In this document: in pieces, positions 33,253 through 57,919 of the stretch
Position numbering within the stretch: the first letter of the stretch is position 1
How the letters are laid out: each line of letters starts with the position of its first letter
NCBI GenBank assembly: GCA_030525285.1
Contig: JAUNFA010000008.1
Span: 4,033-68,032, forward strand
Length of the DNA stretch: 64,000 bases
From: Bacillota bacterium
Lineage (GTDB): Bacteria; Bacillota; Clostridia; Peptostreptococcales; Anaerovoracaceae
Direction: 5' to 3'
Position numbers and translations under genes: made by a program
The notes under the pieces: generated by a model
Database searches by the model: none
Told to the model about the DNA's origin: nothing
Seen by the model: the letters and a program-made list of their open reading frames with translations, nothing else

Positions 33253-33276
33253 GTGCGTGTAGTTTAATAATGCCAA

Positions 33277-33554
33277 AGGCTGTGATGGGAAATAGTATCT
33301 TTAAGGAGACTGAACAGAGAGTTGCTGTGTGGTGAGAAGCGCGTAGTTACTTATTGAGAATACATCCCGGAGCTGCACACTGAACGCTGATTGCAATAGG
33401 CTATTAGGATGTGACGGGTGTGCCCGTTAAAGCACAAGAGTATAATCATAACTGAGTTATGACGTACTTGATGAGGTCGTTGCCGTGAGGCGATGATGAA
33501 CTGAGGTGGTACCGCGGTAATACACCGCCCTCTGTTTACAGAGGGCGGTTTTTA
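33277..33554 (+). promoter_or_regulatory. T-box riboswitch with tyrosine (UAC) specifier upstream of a sodium:solute symporter
   Basis: The T-box sequence GAGGTGGTACCGCGG is at 33503-33517. Stem I ends with GAGAA-TAC-ATCCCGGAGC. Aligned with the ileS leader of this window, the specifier is UAC at 33361-33363, six bases before GAGC in both. UAC is a tyrosine codon, and the UGGU in the T-box fits a tRNA with A73. The element is longer than the ileS leader, with extra helices between stem I and the antiterminator. Uncharged tRNA-Tyr should switch on the transporter. Confidence 0.88.
33524..33554 (+). terminator. T-box regulated terminator of symporter gene
   Basis: A 12-bp perfect stem (33524-33535 with 33538-33549) is followed by TTTTT. 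It is the competitor of the antiterminator. Confidence 0.85.
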
Positions 33555-33622: not shown

Positions 33623-35206
33623 ATGGGCGTTAAAATGATAAGTGCACTCATGCTGATTGTGTTCTTTGCAGTAATGATCAGTGTTGGATTTCGCACAAGA
33701 AAAAGAGCAACATCTGTAGATGGATTCGTACTTGGAGGTCGTTCGGTAGGACCGTGGATTACGGCTTTTGCATTCGGAACATCTTACTTTTCGGCAGTTA
33801 TCTTCGTAGGTTATGCAGGTCAGTTCGGCTGGAACTTTGGTATGGCGGCAACCTGGGCCGGACTTGGAAACGCATTTATCGGTTCACTTCTGGCATGGAA
33901 TATTCTGGGAAGAAGAACAAGGATAATGACACAGCATCTGGATGCCAAAACCATGCCGGACTTTTTTGGCAAAAGATTTGACTCAGTTAAGCTTAAGGTC
34001 ATAGCATCAGTAATTGTATTTATATTTCTGATTCCTTACACTGCATCACTTTATAACGGTCTTTCATCACTGTTCGGACTCGTGTTTAATGTGCCATACT
34101 GGGTGGTAATTGCCATTATGGCAGTTCTTACAGGATTCTATGTAATCTTCGGTGGATACATGGCTACTGCAATTAATGATTTCATTCAGGGCATTATCAT
34201 GCTCTTTGGAATCAGTGCAGTAATATGGGCAGTACTGCACGATAACGGTGGTCTTGTGGCTGCAACTCAGAAACTTTCAGAGGTTCCTGCAGAAGGATGG
34301 AACAATGGTGCTTTCTCATCATTTCTCGGACCTGACCCACTGGCACTGCTTTTCGTTGTGATATTAACATCACTGGGTACATGGGGTCTGCCTCAGATGG
34401 TAGGTAAGTTCTATGCCATTAAGAGCGAGAAGGACATTCACAAAGGAACGGTCATATCGACAGTTTTCGCTATTATCGTAGCAGGCGGATGTTACTTCCT
34501 GGGAGGGTTCGGCAGACTTTATGCGGACAAGATTCCATACCAGCCAGATGGTGTAACTCCATTCTTTGATAAAATTGTTCCGACAATGCTCTCAACACTT
34601 CCGGCAATTGTAATTGCAGTTGTAATTGTACTGGTTCTTTCAGCATCAATGTCAACACTGTCATCTCTGGTGCTTACATCAAGCTCGACATTTACACTTG
34701 ATGTAATCGAACCTGCAAGCAGGAGGGAGATATCAGAAAAAAATCAGGTTACAATAATGAGACTGTTTATAGTGTTCTTCATTCTTGTATCGGCGGTAAT
34801 TGCAGTTGTTAAGGATGCTCATCCTGAAATCACATTTATTGCACAGATGATGGGCATATCCTGGGGAGCATTAGCAGGAGCATTCCTGGCGCCGTTCCTC
34901 TATGGACTTTACTGGAAAGGAATCACAAAAACTTCAGTAATAGTATGCTTCATATGGGGTTGTGCTGTTGAAATTCTTCAACTGTTCATTTCTCTCGGTG
35001 GAATAGATATCAGCGGATGGGGTACCTTCATGGGATACATCTTTGCATCATCAATCAGGTCCGGTGTTCTTGCCATGGTAGGAGGATTAATCATTGTACC
35101 TGTAGTGAGCAAGCTGACAAAGAGAATGGACATGCCGACTGTTGACAATACATTCGCATGTTATGATGAAGAGGTATCGGTTAAGAAGACAGAAGCTCTT
35201 GACTAA
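33623..35206 (+). CDS. Sodium:solute symporter (SSS family), candidate tyrosine importer
   Basis: This 527-residue protein has about 13 membrane helices. The N-terminal FVLGGRSVGPWITAFAFGTSYFSA motif is typical of the SSS family (PutP, PanF), as is a Na-site region near LVLSASMSTLSSLVL. The family imports organic solutes with sodium. The UAC specifier of its T-box leader points to tyrosine as cargo, which is inference. AAGGAGG precedes the ATG. It is monocistronic and closed by a terminator. Confidence 0.88.
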   Translation: MGVKMISALMLIVFFAVMISVGFRTRKRATSVDGFVLGGRSVGPWITAFAFGTSYFSAVIFVGYAGQFGWNFGMAATWAGLGNAFIGSLLAWNILGRRTRIMTQHLDAKTMPDFFGKRFDSVKLKVIASVIVFIFLIPYTASLYNGLSSLFGLVFNVPYWVVIAIMAVLTGFYVIFGGYMATAINDFIQGIIMLFGISAVIWAVLHDNGGLVAATQKLSEVPAEGWNNGAFSSFLGPDPLALLFVVILTSLGTWGLPQMVGKFYAIKSEKDIHKGTVISTVFAIIVAGGCYFLGGFGRLYADKIPYQPDGVTPFFDKIVPTMLSTLPAIVIAVVIVLVLSASMSTLSSLVLTSSSTFTLDVIEPASRREISEKNQVTIMRLFIVFFILVSAVIAVVKDAHPEITFIAQMMGISWGALAGAFLAPFLYGLYWKGITKTSVIVCFIWGCAVEILQLFISLGGIDISGWGTFMGYIFASSIRSGVLAMVGGLIIVPVVSKLTKRMDMPTVDNTFACYDEEVSVKKTEALD

Positions 35207-37291: not shown

Positions 37292-37331
37292 AAAAGACCC
37301 CGGAGCGAAAAATTTCGCTCCGGGGTCTGAC
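37292..37331. terminator. Strong bidirectional terminator
   Basis: A perfect 16-bp stem (37295-37310 with 37313-37328) lies between bioB and the minus-strand Suf-like pair. On the minus strand it exits into TTTT. Confidence 0.85.
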
Positions 37332-46510: not shown

Positions 46511-46597
46511 TGTGGCTGTAATAGTGGGGACGTTACGGCTACAAAGTCAAATTGTAAAAGAAAGGGGAAGATTAACCGTTATAAGGTTAATACAGGG
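46511..46597 (+). promoter_or_regulatory. Structured 5' leader with two hairpins, class unknown
   Basis: TGTGGCTGTAA (46511-46521) pairs with TTACGGCTACA (46533-46543) through 11 bp including two G-U pairs. ATTAACC (46571-46577) pairs with GGTTAAT (46585-46591), and this hairpin stands directly before the AGGG ribosome site (46594-46597). I do not recognise a known riboswitch class. Translation control of the adhesin is possible. Confidence 0.45.
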
Positions 46598-46602
46598 TGA
46601 TT

Positions 46603-49545
46603 ATGAGATTAAATTATGATTTGCGAAGACGGAGAACCATAGTGTTTATCCTTGTATTTGTAATGCTTGCAGCTGTTATGTGGACAGGCAGTTCTTTTGC
46701 AGCTCTTACTGCAGGTAAGTCAGGCAAAAGCACGTGGGTTTATATGGGTGCAGGCAAGGACGGTAAGGCATACAAGTCCGTTAATACAGGAAATAAACAA
46801 CCAAGATATACTGTCAAGGTTGGCGGTGGATCTTATGTAGGATATTGCATTAATCCAGATAAAGGATGGGGAACCGGAACAAAAATGACGGCAAGGTCTT
46901 TTGAAGTTTCAAAAGCTTTGAGCAAAATTCCCAAGCAAAGACAGGAATTGTTAAGTTATGTGCTTCTTTATGGATTTAATAAGGGCAAAAGTGCACCTTT
47001 TGGTAACAGCAATGATTATTATGCGGCGACACAGGCGCTTGTATGGCAGGTGCTTCAGGGTAATGTAATAATGAATGAAGAGGGCGACTGGACCCAAAAC
47101 AGCACTTCAGACAAGAAGTATAAGCTTATCAAAGGACACTCATACGGTGTTAAATGTTACAATCACATTAAACAGGAGATTTCCAAACATGTTAAGTGTG
47201 CTTCCTTTGCGAGCAGAACTGAGGATGAGACGACAGCGAAGGTGATGAAGTACAATTACAAGACTAAACGATGGTCTATTTCACAGGAGGACTCTGTGAA
47301 GGGGAATTACCTGAAAAAAGTGGGCGGATCCAGGGAACTTTCAATGAACAGAAGCGGATACAAGTATACCTTCGCCACAGGGGAAGCAGGAAATTATAAA
47401 GCAGTATTAATGAATGACAGAAATTACGGAACAGGACAATCCGCAATGGTATTCGATTCGTCCAACTCTGGTATACAGTCTGTAGCATTGGGAGCTACCG
47501 ACATGAAGAAGTTTTATGCAGTCTTCACAACGGAGAAGGAAGGCCACGGCAAAATCGTCAAAATTGATGAAAAGGGTAATCGCATGGCAGGATTCAGCTT
47601 TAGAATTACGTGTGATGAAAATGGATATGATGAGACTCTTACCACAGATGATAATGGTGAAATAAGTGTGGTACTTTTTCCAGGAGAGTACATTGTGAAT
47701 GAAGTGCTTACATCTGAACAGCTTAAAGATAAATGGAATCAGGCGGAACCTGTGAAGCTCATTGTTAAAGAAGGAGAAACGAGCGTTGTAGAGATAAAGA
47801 ATACGCGGGATAAAAGTGCATCTTTGAAGATTATTAAACAGAACAGTGATGGGGGACCTTGCGGTGGTTTTAAATTCAGAGTAGAGGGAATACTTGACGA
47901 TGCTGAGAGTTTAACGGAAGAAAAGATTATAAGCAGTGTGAATCCTCAATATTCCGATGAAGATTACAAGGTTAAGGAGTGGTTCATAGAAGACAAGGAC
48001 GTAATTGACCACATTAACAGAGACGCTGCGGCAGGAAAGAGGGGAGGATATATTGTAAAGATTGCAGGTAAGGCAGTTCTGGTTAATAAGGACAATGAGA
48101 AGGTGTCTGACAGTACGGAATCTACAGAGAGTAAGACTGATAGTAGCGATGGTAATACGGGAGACAGTGGCGACAGGAAGGATGGGGATGAAGATAGTAA
48201 TAAACATCCGTCAGAAGAGACAAAAGCGAAACCGGATTCCATAGAACTTCAGCTTGAGGCAATGGTAAAGCTGCGAGGTGTAAAGGATGATAAAAAGGAA
48301 CCGGTAAAAAAGAATCAAAATGGAATAATATCCAGAGATTTCACGTGGAACGGTGGTGCCACAGTTTTAAATAAGGTGTACGAAACTGACAGTGATGGCA
48401 TAATTGCGATAAAGAATGTGGCATACGGAACTTATACAATAACTGAGGAGATGAATGAACATCAGAAAAAACGCTACAGTGAACCAAAATCCCAAAAGGT
48501 GAAAATAGACGAGAACAACCAGACAGACATTATGCCTTTTGTATTTGAGAACATGGCAAAGGAAGGCAGGGTAAAGGTCATTAAGAAGAGTCTTGACGGA
48601 CAGATTGCAGACGTCTCGTTCAAGATAACGGGAACTACTGCATGGGGAGAAAGGGCGACTGATGTAATAGGTGTGACCGACGCCGATGGCATAGCAGATT
48701 TCGGATATTTGCCGGCAGGAGATTACACAGTGGAAGAAATCAATGTGGATTTAGAGAAATATGACCCTGTGCAGCCTCAGAAATTCAAAATTACAGGTGA
48801 TGAGAAGGCTGATTCTGTTATTGAACTTAAGTTTGAAAACATAAGGAAGTCAGACCTGCTCATAAGCAAGAAGGATGCTGTAACAGGTGGTGAGCTTGCC
48901 GGTGCGAAACTGCAGCTGATAGATAAGGAAACAGGGGAGATAATTGATGAATGGATATCGGGAAATGAACCACATCTTATTAAAGGACTCCGGTACGGGC
49001 AGGTTGTAATTCTCAAAGAACTGTTACCTCCTGTAATCGTAACCGACGCCAAGAGGGGTTATATGAATAGTGAAGGTAAATATGTCACGGGATTTGATAA
49101 GGCTGAAAAGATTGAAATAACTGTAGGCTCTGTAGAAAAAGCTGTAATGGTAGATGAGCCGACACAGGTAGTGGTAAGCAAAAGGGATGATAAAACGTCC
49201 AAGTATCTTGCTGGTGCTATTTTGAACATTATCGACCCGGAATCAAATGAGATGATACATGAATGGGTGACAACGGATGAGCCTCACGTAATCGAAGGAC
49301 TTGTTAAGGGTAAAAGGTATGTTGTAAAAGAGGTAAAGGCACCAATGGGATATGAACTTGCGGAGGATGTGTCGTTTGTTCCTGGCAAGGATAATGAGAT
49401 TGTAATCATTGATAAGCCTTCCATTTCTGCAGCAGTTAAGACAGGTGACAATACAAGGATGTGGATTCCTGTTGCGGCAGGGATGATATGTCTTTTATCC
49501 ATTGGGATTGCAACGTTATTGATTATCACAAGGAGGAGAAGATAA
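46603..49545 (+). CDS. Cell-surface adhesin with thioester domain, Cna-B repeats and variant sorting signal
   Basis: The 980-residue protein has a signal peptide with a basic start (YDLRRRRTIVFILVFVM). A thioester domain follows, with C82 (GYCINP) and Q144 (ATQALVW), the pair that forms the Cys-Gln bond used by some Gram-positive adhesins to bind host surfaces covalently. About five Cna-B/SpaA-type repeats follow (such as LLISKKDAVTGGELAGAKL and VVVSKRDDKTSKYLAGAIL), probably with Lys-Asn isopeptide bonds. A Ser/Thr/Asp/Glu-rich insert lies near residues 500-545. The end is AAVKTGD, a hydrophobic helix and RRRR: a sortase-type signal lacking the usual LP. No sortase gene is nearby. Start 46603 follows AGGG. 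Confidence 0.88.
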   Translation: MRLNYDLRRRRTIVFILVFVMLAAVMWTGSSFAALTAGKSGKSTWVYMGAGKDGKAYKSVNTGNKQPRYTVKVGGGSYVGYCINPDKGWGTGTKMTARSFEVSKALSKIPKQRQELLSYVLLYGFNKGKSAPFGNSNDYYAATQALVWQVLQGNVIMNEEGDWTQNSTSDKKYKLIKGHSYGVKCYNHIKQEISKHVKCASFASRTEDETTAKVMKYNYKTKRWSISQEDSVKGNYLKKVGGSRELSMNRSGYKYTFATGEAGNYKAVLMNDRNYGTGQSAMVFDSSNSGIQSVALGATDMKKFYAVFTTEKEGHGKIVKIDEKGNRMAGFSFRITCDENGYDETLTTDDNGEISVVLFPGEYIVNEVLTSEQLKDKWNQAEPVKLIVKEGETSVVEIKNTRDKSASLKIIKQNSDGGPCGGFKFRVEGILDDAESLTEEKIISSVNPQYSDEDYKVKEWFIEDKDVIDHINRDAAAGKRGGYIVKIAGKAVLVNKDNEKVSDSTESTESKTDSSDGNTGDSGDRKDGDEDSNKHPSEETKAKPDSIELQLEAMVKLRGVKDDKKEPVKKNQNGIISRDFTWNGGATVLNKVYETDSDGIIAIKNVAYGTYTITEEMNEHQKKRYSEPKSQKVKIDENNQTDIMPFVFENMAKEGRVKVIKKSLDGQIADVSFKITGTTAWGERATDVIGVTDADGIADFGYLPAGDYTVEEINVDLEKYDPVQPQKFKITGDEKADSVIELKFENIRKSDLLISKKDAVTGGELAGAKLQLIDKETGEIIDEWISGNEPHLIKGLRYGQVVILKELLPPVIVTDAKRGYMNSEGKYVTGFDKAEKIEITVGSVEKAVMVDEPTQVVVSKRDDKTSKYLAGAILNIIDPESNEMIHEWVTTDEPHVIEGLVKGKRYVVKEVKAPMGYELAEDVSFVPGKDNEIVIIDKPSISAAVKTGDNTRMWIPVAAGMICLLSIGIATLLIITRRRR

Positions 49546-50407: not shown

Positions 50408-51232
50408 TTATAATGGACAAATCATTCCGACGCATACACCGATGAAATAGAGAAGCCCTATAATGAGCAATGTATCTTTCTTGTTGGCATTGATTCGGAA
50501 GAGCATTAATGGACCAACGCCTGCCGCACAAAGCAGTCCTGAAAGCATGGTTCCCATGTTTATCACATGTTCCAGATATAATTCTGTGATCAGTACAGAA
50601 CCTGCACAGTTAGGAATAAGACCTATTAGTCCGGCAACAACAGGACCTAAGAATTTGCTGTCTATCAGCAGACTTGTTATGGTATCCTGACAGATGAAGT
50701 GGACCAGTGTGTTAAGACCGAATGTGAAAATGAGAAGGAAAAATGCTATCTGACCGGTATAGACCAGTGCAGTCGGTATAATACTGCCACCTCCGCACCC
50801 GCAGCCTTCAAATTCAATTTCTTCAACCGATTCGGGAATTGATTTGCGCATTATAAGATCGACAATCATACCTGCCACAATTCCAATGACAAGCTTTACA
50901 GCGAGAATGGTAAGTATAAGCGATACAGGGGCATGATATGAAATCATAATCGGAAGCATTTCATCCGATGTTGACAGGTATACAGCAATAAGAGTACCTG
51001 CTGAGATGAGTTCTGCTGAATAAAGCTGCGATGAAATGGCAGAAAATCCGCATTGAGGAATTATGCCGAGAGCACCACCTATAACAGGACCTTTTTTGCC
51101 TGCAGCAGTGATAGCCTGCCACCATTTCTGTCCAGCATTGCATTCCAGCCAACCGATAATGAGATAAGTTGCGAACAGGAAGGGAAGCAGCTTCAGAATA
51201 TCAATTATTGTATCTAAAATTACTTCTATCAT
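50408..51232 (-). CDS. Putative metal/arsenic-efflux-type permease (putative manganese transporter group)
   Basis: This 274-residue membrane protein has about eight hydrophobic helices in two halves, each with a repeated motif ending in PxCG or PNCAG (IIPQCGFSAISSQLY and LIPNCAGSVLITELY). It also has a cytoplasmic Cys-rich loop (EGCGCGGG). This is the pattern of proteins annotated as arsenic efflux or putative manganese transporters. The actual ion is unknown. Start 51232 has AAGGAT at about 8 nt; the extended frame to 51304 lacks a ribosome site. Confidence 0.7.
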   Translation of the reverse strand: MIEVILDTIIDILKLLPFLFATYLIIGWLECNAGQKWWQAITAAGKKGPVIGGALGIIPQCGFSAISSQLYSAELISAGTLIAVYLSTSDEMLPIMISYHAPVSLILTILAVKLVIGIVAGMIVDLIMRKSIPESVEEIEFEGCGCGGGSIIPTALVYTGQIAFFLLIFTFGLNTLVHFICQDTITSLLIDSKFLGPVVAGLIGLIPNCAGSVLITELYLEHVINMGTMLSGLLCAAGVGPLMLFRINANKKDTLLIIGLLYFIGVCVGMICPL

Positions 51233-51370
51233 ATTGTTATCCTTAAATATTAAAAAGAACATCCCGAGGAATGAAATCCCCATCAGATGCACAATCCATG
51301 ACAATTAATTATGAACGTTAAATTGCATTAAGTCAAGTATAAATTAATGTTAATTTTTTGCAGATGATTG

Positions 51371-51399
51371 TTGATTGATGCTTATGGTGATGATATAAT
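51371..51399 (+). promoter_or_regulatory. Promoter of candidate small RNA
   Basis: TTGATT (51371-51376) is 17 nt before TATAAT (51394-51399), which is preceded by TGA to form an extended -10. Confidence 0.7.
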
Positions 51400-51405
51400 A
51401 CACCT

Positions 51406-51512
51406 AGAAAGCAAGATTACGTTTGACGTAATACGCTTTCATTGAACGCATATACCAATAGTTCAATCCAATACTTATCTGAGAGACCCGATGCATGGTG
51501 CATCGGGTTTTC
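51406..51512 (+). ncRNA. Candidate ~107-nt small RNA or leader with three hairpins
   Basis: Downstream of the promoter, three consecutive hairpins follow with no open frame. The first has GAAAGC/GCTTTC (51407-51412 with 51435-51440) enclosing ATTACG/CGTAAT. The second is ATTGAAC/GTTCAAT (51441-51447 with 51461-51467). The third is a perfect 10-bp terminator stem (51486-51495 with 51499-51508) followed by TTTT. The layout is that of an independent small RNA, or of a leader that ends before the thioesterase gene. No known class was recognised. Confidence 0.55.
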
Positions 51513-51589
51513 TCATGGTCGTATTGCATATGGATAATTGTAATGATACAATTGCTTGTGGCTTTAAAAATCGAAAGGAATTGCATGAA

Positions 51590-52039
51590 ATGAAAAGAGA
51601 TATAGGAGAAACTTTTGTAGACAGCATAAGACTTATAAGTGAGAACGGATCGGGGAATATGAATAATCTTCTTCGCCCCAGATTGATGAAATACAACGAT
51701 GATGAACAAACATCTACAATAAGGTATGAAATCAGTGATTGGGAGCTTAATCAGAGAGGACAGGTTCATGGTGGTGCGGTTTCAGCCATGTTTGATGTGT
51801 CCATGGGTGTATCAGCATCCGTATTCTGTAATCGCGATGTAACTACGGCAGAGATGTCAATAAGTTATATCAGACCATTTATAGGCGAAGCCTTCGATTT
51901 TAGAACAGAAGTCCTTTATTGCGGTAAAAAACTTGTCAGATTAGAGTGCAGAGCATATAACTGTGAGTCAGGTAAACTGACTGCGTCAGCACATGCAACC
52001 TTCGCTTACATTGGACAGATTGTAACCAATCAGGAGTAA
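51590..52039 (+). CDS. PaaI-type hotdog-fold thioesterase
   Basis: This 149-residue protein has the hotdog thioesterase core, with QVHGGAVSAMFDVSMGVSAS (the HGG motif and the helix with the catalytic acid) and the strand AEMSISYIRPF. PaaI-type enzymes hydrolyse acyl-CoAs, often aryl-CoAs. The start at 51590 follows AAAGGAA at 9 nt; the longer frame from 51491 would cross the small-RNA terminator. Expression may depend on read-through past that hairpin or on a separate weak promoter. Confidence 0.8.
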   Translation: MKRDIGETFVDSIRLISENGSGNMNNLLRPRLMKYNDDEQTSTIRYEISDWELNQRGQVHGGAVSAMFDVSMGVSASVFCNRDVTTAEMSISYIRPFIGEAFDFRTEVLYCGKKLVRLECRAYNCESGKLTASAHATFAYIGQIVTNQE

Positions 52040-52142: not shown

Positions 52143-53588
52143 CTATTTATCAGAACTGCTGTCTGTTGAACTGTTACTCTGTGCTGTTGGCGGATTGTAA
52201 TCTCCATTAAGGTAAGATATGAAGTGGATGCAGTTTAACATTGCAACACTTTCACCGTCCTCAGGTATTGAGTACTGGATTGCTTTGATCTTTTTATTCT
52301 TGTTTGTCAGAATATTAAGATCCGAAGTTTTGAGCGTTCTGAGTGCGTTATTATCATTGTTTATATCGATGCTCAGAGCTGTGGCAAAAAAGTCCGTCAT
52401 CTCCTTATTTGAGGACCAAGTCATATAGATATCGGACGCTTTGGATTTAATATCACAAAGTCCCGCTGTAGTTGAAAGTGACTGCAGAAGTTCTTTCATT
52501 GCCTCTTTTGTCTTGCTTCTTGCACTTACATCAAGTTTAAATTTTTTGTTAGATGTATTAATGCGAACATAGTCATTGGCGGATATGATTTCACCACTTT
52601 CTTCATCCTGATAGCAGATTCCCGGATCTATTGTGTACATGAGGCTTATTATGTCGCTCTTGTCATTGTTTGAAATTACTTTGGACGGAAGGGAAACCTC
52701 GGTCATTGTGTATACGAAATTGACATCGAGTTTATCGCATTTTTTCTTCACCTTTTCGAGAGATTTTTCGTATTTGCTCTTCATACTGTCAATATTGTTG
52801 TTATCAATTACAACAACTGCAGTAGCAGAGTACGGTGTGTACGATTCAGTAACTTTGCTCTTGAATGATGCCAGCTGGAAAAGTTTGCCGCTACTCTGGC
52901 ATGAGGCGAGGTAACTTCCGACAACATCAATTGGATTAGGAAATTTGCGGCTGAAATCAAATGAATCGTTGTAGTCGCTTATGGTCATAGTTATTTCGTA
53001 AGCATTGGAATATGAAGGGGATTCATATGAAAGCTTCCTTGAAAGACTTACGTCAGATGCAAATGCTCCTGCAACAGTAATGTCCTCATCGTCTTTGTTT
53101 GTGAGGCGTATAACGTGATCAACATTCAGATATTTTGAATTGATTAACGAGGAACCAAGGAATCCGCTTTCGGTAGTTTCTGTTACGATAAGACGAATCA
53201 TACCGTGTTCTTCAGGTCCCAATAAAGATGCAAGTCCGACTGCCAGGGGACGATTAGAGGAAGACATATCTGATGTATTCACTGAACACTGGAGTGCTAC
53301 AGATTCGGAATTGGCACCACTTTTGGTGGCCTTGTTTGTCAGAACAATGTAGTGATCTGACATCTTGGTAACCTCAATGTCGTTAGTCTTGCTCCATGAT
53401 TTGATGTATTCTTCAACCATGGAAAATTTGCTTCCTGAATCGCCGAATGTATCTGCAAGAGTTTTGTATGTTTCGTTAAGTGTGGATTTGCGTTGGTTTT
53501 CTATACTTTCTTCGCTAACTGAGCATCCTGTCAGAAACAGAGTACAGGTTAACAGCAGCGAAGTGATCAGCACTATTGCTTTTTTCAT
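52143..53588 (-). CDS. Lipoprotein resembling an inactive PepD-type M20 peptidase
   Basis: This 481-residue protein has a signal peptide and lipobox (LTGC, Cys22), so it should be anchored outside the membrane. Read against aminoacyl-histidine dipeptidase (PepD) from memory, it appears collinear: VALQCSVNTSD corresponds to VLQGHLDM, LIVTETTESGFLGSSL to LLTMTEEAGMDGAFGL, and IRLTNKDDEDITVAGAFAS to INTDSEEEGEIYMGCAGG. FQLASFKSKVTES and the following strand fit the lid-domain return. The metal-ligand His, Asp and most acidic residues are replaced, so catalysis looks lost. The C-terminus is Ser/Thr-rich. The fold assignment is by eye and should be treated as a hypothesis. It could instead be an unrelated lipoprotein. 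Confidence 0.6.
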   Translation of the reverse strand: MKKAIVLITSLLLTCTLFLTGCSVSEESIENQRKSTLNETYKTLADTFGDSGSKFSMVEEYIKSWSKTNDIEVTKMSDHYIVLTNKATKSGANSESVALQCSVNTSDMSSSNRPLAVGLASLLGPEEHGMIRLIVTETTESGFLGSSLINSKYLNVDHVIRLTNKDDEDITVAGAFASDVSLSRKLSYESPSYSNAYEITMTISDYNDSFDFSRKFPNPIDVVGSYLASCQSSGKLFQLASFKSKVTESYTPYSATAVVVIDNNNIDSMKSKYEKSLEKVKKKCDKLDVNFVYTMTEVSLPSKVISNNDKSDIISLMYTIDPGICYQDEESGEIISANDYVRINTSNKKFKLDVSARSKTKEAMKELLQSLSTTAGLCDIKSKASDIYMTWSSNKEMTDFFATALSIDINNDNNALRTLKTSDLNILTNKNKKIKAIQYSIPEDGESVAMLNCIHFISYLNGDYNPPTAQSNSSTDSSSDK

Positions 53589-57184: not shown

Positions 57185-57292
57185 TTTAAACTGTAAAGTA
57201 GAATTTCACGCGTTAGTGTCCGGGGGATGGGGAGTTGCCTCAGGAACGAATAGCTTTAGCTGCGATGTGAGATTCGCACCCGTTGCATTAAA
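57185..57292 (+). promoter_or_regulatory. Tetrahydrofolate (THF) riboswitch of the folate operon
   Basis: Conserved THF-riboswitch blocks appear in order: AGTAG (57198-57202), CGCGTTAGTG, GGGGGATGGGGAGTTGCC, GAACGAA, and GATTCGCACCCGTTGCAT. Helix P1 closes as TTTAA/TGTAA (57185-57189, 57092-like side at 57192-57196) with TTGCA/TTAAA (57283-57292). It precedes folE, so high THF should reduce expression of folate synthesis. The class assignment rests on remembered consensus and on P1 pairing. Confidence 0.9.
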
Positions 57293-57364: not shown

Positions 57365-57919
57365 ATGGATTCAAATAAGATAAGAAAAGGTGTAGAACTG
57401 ATACTTGAAGGTATCGGTGAAGATGTTAAGCGTGAAGGATTGGTTGAGACACCAGACAGAATCGCGCGCATGTGTGAGGAAATTTTCGCAGGACTTGGTT
57501 CAGATGCATCGGAGCATTATGCCAAGAAGTTTACTGCAATTAATAACAATATGGTGGTAGAGAAGGACATACATTTTTATTCGGTATGCGAACATCATCT
57601 GCTCCCTTTCTATGGTTGTGCTCATATAGCTTATATACCTGACGGAAATGTGGCCGGATTGAGCAAACTGGCAAGAACTGTTGAAACTTTCGCCAGAAGA
57701 CCGCAGATTCAGGAAAATATGACGGCTCAGATTGCCGACGCCATTACGGAAAATCTTAATCCGAAGGGTGTGATGGTGATGATTGAAGCGGAGCACATGT
57801 GCATGACAATGAGAGGAATACAGAAGCCAGGAACTAAGACGGTGACTACAATTACAAGGGGAGCATTTGACGGTGACTATGCATTGCAGAATGCTTTTCT
57901 TCAAAGTGTGAGAGGGTAA
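57365..57919 (+). CDS. folE: GTP cyclohydrolase I
   Basis: FolE converts GTP to 7,8-dihydroneopterin triphosphate, the first step of folate synthesis. The 184-residue protein shows the zinc and substrate motifs [36 protein letters not shown] and [16 protein letters not shown]. It is the first gene after the THF riboswitch, with AGGAG at 6 nt. The next gene starts 4 nt after its stop. Confidence 0.96.

Follow-up and report, generated by a model that had tools for sequence, protein, structure and literature searches.

Does the short intergenic stretch between a divergent exporter gene and a thioesterase gene encode a small RNA in its own right, or is it merely the leader of the gene that follows? 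The locus lies in a window of 64,000 nucleotides (the whole stretch of DNA that was analysed, with all coordinates given as positions in it) from a Bacillota bacterium of the Anaerovoracaceae, whose 1.66 Mb genome is held in 39 contigs and whose genus-mates include Candidatus Colimonas fimequi. On one side is an ArsP_2 putative heavy-metal exporter gene (50408..51232, minus strand), and on the other a gene for a 4HBT-superfamily thioesterase (51590..52039, plus strand), which is a neighbour outside the RNA unit. The original prediction proposed an unrecognised RNA of about 107 nt with a good promoter, three hairpins, a strong terminator and no reading frame, acting either alone or as an attenuator of the thioesterase gene. 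As argued below, it is very probable that the unit is an independent functional sRNA.

The RNA folds much better than its composition would predict. The minimum free energy of a 112-nt stretch is -40.9 kcal/mol, compared to -19.3 ± 3.1 kcal/mol for dinucleotide shuffles (z = -7.07), and none of 200 shuffles folded as well. Among 4564 tiles of equal length on both strands of the window, six folded equally well or better. The strongest fold of the window is found elsewhere, in a near-perfect inverted repeat (AGACCCCGGAGCGAAAAATTTCGCTCCGGGGTCT, 37295-37328) between radical SAM and SufBD genes on opposite strands, which is probably a bidirectional terminator common to both.

The three consecutive hairpins are arranged as originally described, all on the plus strand. 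Hairpin 1 (51407..51440) consists of a 6-bp outer stem, an internal loop, a 7-bp inner stem and a 3-nt loop; its sequence is variable and its shape is kept. Hairpin 2 (51441..51467) has a 7-bp stem and a 13-nt loop, GCATATACCAATA; it is invariant from 51442 and weak on its own (-4.6 kcal/mol). It is followed by a 13-nt single-stranded linker, CCAATACTTATCT (51468..51480), also invariant and with an unpaired probability of about 1. The motif CCAAUA is present twice, once in the hairpin 2 loop and again in the linker. The third hairpin, GAGAGACCCGATGCA-TGG-TGCATCGGGTTTTCTC (51481..51514), would be an intrinsic terminator whose stem sequence drifts in relatives while the hairpin is kept. An Rfam search gave no match for this RNA even with permissive thresholds, and no family reached its gathering score, in agreement with its description as an unrecognised class. 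Two other RNA elements of the window were recognised by Rfam: a T-box leader (RF00230, 108 bits) at 33273-33535, ahead of a sodium:solute symporter family gene (33623-35206), and a THF riboswitch (RF01831, 74 bits) at 57192-57287, ahead of a gene for GTP cyclohydrolase I (57365-57919), a pairing that fits folate biosynthesis.

The ends of the unit can be proposed from its promoter and terminator. The putative promoter, TTGATT-17-TATAAT with an extended -10 TG (51371..51399, plus strand), matches the consensus at 10 of 12 positions. Promoter-like matches as a class barely exceed chance in this region (12 found vs 8.3 expected), and support for the promoter therefore rests on its conservation. 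The extended -10 is present in all three species in which the RNA was found (TGATATAAT, TGATATAAT and TGCTATACT), 6-7 nt upstream of hairpin 1, while the good -35 is confined to the window and is not seen in the two relatives. It thus appears that the RNA has a promoter of its own at its 5' end in each species. At the other end, the third hairpin and a U-rich tail are likewise present in all three, consistent with an own intrinsic terminator. The prediction of a strong terminator was borne out for the stem (-21.4, with a GAGAG/CUC base) but not for the tail, which is modest (only UUUUCUC), and a terminator consensus scan of the window did not list this site. Start and end together would delimit a transcript of about 108 nt (51406..51514, plus strand), very close to the length first estimated.

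Searching 100 related genomes at the DNA level returned two true matches, one in Clostridiales SUG351 (G019, JALEUQ010000053.1) and one in Candidatus Colimonas fimequi (G043, JAGHTQ010000064.1), both of the same genus as the window genome (Anaerovoracaceae, near Candidatus Colimonas). The RNAs are 93% identical to that of the window over 108 nt in G019 and 89% over 72 nt in G043. Each is present in one copy per genome and adjoins the ArsP_2 gene at the same genomic place, this divergent neighbour being kept in all three species with protein identities of 88 and 73%, respectively. A promoter-like site for the exporter gene itself, TTGACT-17-CATAAT (51308..51336, minus strand), has identical hexamers and spacing in G019. 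Further along the window, the lipoprotein-like 481-aa protein encoded at 52143-53588, which has no Pfam match, is kept in G019 at 74%. On the other side of the locus, 46597-49545 encodes a large adhesin or pilin-like surface protein that combines a thioester domain with several SpaA prealbumin-like domains.

No further members of the family were found. A covariance-model search that covered 49 genomes of the genus, 350 of the family, 297 of the order and 391 of the class recovered only the same three, and an exact pattern search of 84,980 GTDB species genomes only the two relatives. There was no pattern match in viral contigs and none in plasmids, and phages gave chance matches only. The weak covariance-model matches were read as alignments, three of them (L051-L053) also in genomic context, and were rejected as homologues: they share little beyond the terminator hairpin, and are terminators, a coding end or an apparent RNase P RNA 3' end. 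No such RNA lies near the other ArsP_2 genes of the genus (36-47% identity) or at other thioesterase loci; one further genome, with a thioesterase 74% identical, could not be judged because its contig ends at the thioesterase gene.

The most notable feature of the RNA is the contrast between a core free of changes and a first hairpin that keeps its shape alone. The core, TTGAACGCATATACCAATAGTTCAATCCAATACTTATCTGAGAGA (51442..51486, plus strand), is 45 nt long and identical in the three species. Synonymous sites can be regarded as saturated between these species, because only 38% of the fourfold-degenerate sites in the adjacent ArsP_2 gene are identical (47/124 in G019 and 39/103 in G043). At that rate, the probability of 45 unchanged bases is about 1e-19 in each comparison. 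In hairpin 1, G043 differs in most of its sequence and retains the 7-bp inner stem, the 3-nt loop and the outer stem. The inner helix is 100% paired in the three species, and in three of its pairs both bases have changed, so that the covariation search in related genomes that had been proposed as a check came out in favour of the RNA. For the structure as a whole, the paired fraction of cells is 95%, vs 34-46% for slid partners, and 1-2 of 500 shuffles equal the real alignment in pairing, in two-sided changes or in covariation score; further pair types were less discriminating (71 of 500). These figures come from three sequences only, depend on one divergent member, and refer to a structure drawn with these sequences in view, and we regard the covariation evidence for hairpin 1 as good but not strong. 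Hairpin 2 yields no covariation information, since it never varies. Taken by comparison among species, a defined unit, its shape and the constraint on its core appear well supported.

How would such an RNA work? Transcription would start at about 51406, a few bases past the extended -10, so that the RNA opens directly with hairpin 1. This hairpin, kept in shape only, probably shields the 5' end from decay. The functional part would be the invariant core, in which the loop of hairpin 2 and the linker, each 13 nt long and open, both bear a CCAAUA motif. The predicted openness of the two stretches is 0.8-1.0 in all three species, which together with their invariance fits the pairing region of a trans-acting sRNA. 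Their most likely role is to bind, in trans, a target RNA or else a protein. The third hairpin, ahead of the next gene, would be where transcription stops. We consider this explanation as a whole, an independent, lineage-restricted, trans-acting sRNA with the invariant loop and linker as recognition sites, reasonably probable. For base pairing with mRNAs as the mode of action our confidence is only slightly on the positive side.

The target searches are relevant here. When start regions of the genome itself were screened, the loop paired slightly better than its shuffled versions, of which 2 in 60 did equally well, and the linker had no such advantage (47 of 60). The signal of the loop vanished in 355 conserved gene pairs with G019, where 47 of 100 shuffled loop cores and 48 of 100 shuffled linker cores paired equally well; this test spans about 0.47 Mb, or about 30% of the G019 genome. 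Start regions showed no enrichment or conservation of TATTGG, the complement of CCAAUA, or of CCAATA itself. The best individual sites were also discarded for lack of conservation: perfect 12-mers precede C20:79159(-) and C10:49006(+), genes for which that search gave no DNA match in either G019 or G043, and the candidate sites of cysS and aroD are not conserved. Across the own-genome screen, the G019 gene pairs and the motif tests, no conserved mRNA target was found. No Pfam Hfq match came up in any of the three genomes, which are 88-97% complete, while control genomes were positive; any pairing would thus not depend on Hfq.

The arrangement of the locus could also suggest a cis-acting leader, that is, a riboswitch or attenuator acting on the thioesterase gene through this terminator. 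Leaders of this type are likewise structured RNAs with an intrinsic terminator at their end, placed ahead of a gene. In the window 75 nt separate the terminator from the thioesterase start downstream, and the thioesterase is the next gene in G043 as well. In G019, however, where gene order is otherwise conserved, two genes separate the RNA from the thioesterase and the core is nonetheless unchanged. These genes (G019:C51:24376-26800) encode an M20-type peptidase and a glutamate-cysteine-ligase-like protein, names that reflect a reading of the translated sequence. Moreover, promoter-like sites follow the terminator in each species: TTGCAT-17-TACAAT in the window (51524..51552, plus strand) and TTGCAT-17-TATAAT in G043, both ahead of the thioesterase gene, and TTGACT-17-TATAAT ahead of the peptidase gene in G019. 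They are consensus readings rather than mapped starts, and they suggest that the genes downstream are each transcribed from a promoter of their own. Unlike in known attenuator leaders, the downstream gene thus varies between species, and there is no Rfam riboswitch match. The intervening genes and the sites after the terminator make attenuation improbable; no association with one downstream gene is conserved, and comparison among the three species indicates that the RNA structure is independent of the gene that follows. Of the two roles originally put forward, the independent sRNA is therefore the one that stands, given its conservation, the paired changes of hairpin 1 and the retained promoter and terminator, while the role as thioesterase attenuator is opposed by gene order in G019. 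An even less probable view is that an unused promoter happens to precede unrelated, functionless hairpins. The near-chance level of promoter-like matches would agree with it. Accident alone, however, would hardly have left 45 bases unchanged, altered hairpin 1 in matching pairs and retained the extended -10 across species whose synonymous sites are saturated.

Coding potential deserves consideration as well, since in each of the three species a TTG frame (LNAYTNSSIQYLSER...) runs uninterrupted across the core. It has no Shine-Dalgarno site and its TTG start falls within a stem; there are zero synonymous changes in its 15 codons despite the saturated fourfold sites nearby, and beyond the core both sequence and length diverge. 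The frame thus does not look coding, there is no ATG or GTG frame of note either, and a small protein is highly unlikely. The same can be said of a CRISPR-related RNA such as a tracrRNA, which would share the size, the several hairpins and the terminator. The RNA lies between genes for an exporter and a thioesterase, and a simple scan of nearly all of the 1.66 Mb genome (about 15 kb masked or missing) found no repeat array. The main rival to base pairing is a protein-binding decoy, in which the two CCAAUA motifs would hold an RNA-binding regulator. CsrB/RsmZ-type RNAs hold their regulator through GGA motifs, and they resemble the present RNA in that a short motif recurs at open sites. That the 6-nt motif occurs in both open stretches, invariant in each, and that no mRNA pairing signal was found would fit this interpretation. 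Unlike those RNAs, however, this one carries CCAAUA rather than GGA, has only two copies, and has no known partner protein. By our own estimate, a 6-mer common to two 13-nt stretches arises by chance in about 1.6% of cases, and the sense motif CCAATA shows neither enrichment nor conservation in start regions. We regard the decoy as rather unlikely, and the trans-acting sRNA that pairs through its loop and linker as the preferred explanation.

RoxS/RsaE and FsrA, well-known sRNAs of Bacillota, carry a C-rich UCCC motif. This is absent from the RNA described here, whose open stretches bear CCAAUA instead and which has no Rfam match. In other respects it resembles the trans-acting intergenic sRNAs of Bacillota, among them those two and the clostridial sRNAs of PMC3879012: they likewise have their own promoter, are about 100 nt long and single-copy, and combine a stable 5' hairpin, open single-stranded stretches and an intrinsic terminator. 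With 159 intergenic sRNAs counted in C. acetobutylicum (PMC3879012), the RNA is of an ordinary kind, one among many. The family itself appears to be new, as Rfam has nothing that matches it and its sequence relatives are confined to the three species. A more specific picture, in which a lineage-restricted sRNA of Clostridia without detectable Hfq uses its two CCAAUA motifs either to pair or to hold an RNA-binding protein, with a core kept past synonymous saturation, is tentative and of fairly low probability.

The finding extends the list of sRNA families by one from gut Clostridia known chiefly through metagenomes, and pinpoints the 45 bases that are under selection. Since Hfq was not found in these species, the RNA could serve for studying how sRNAs act without it.
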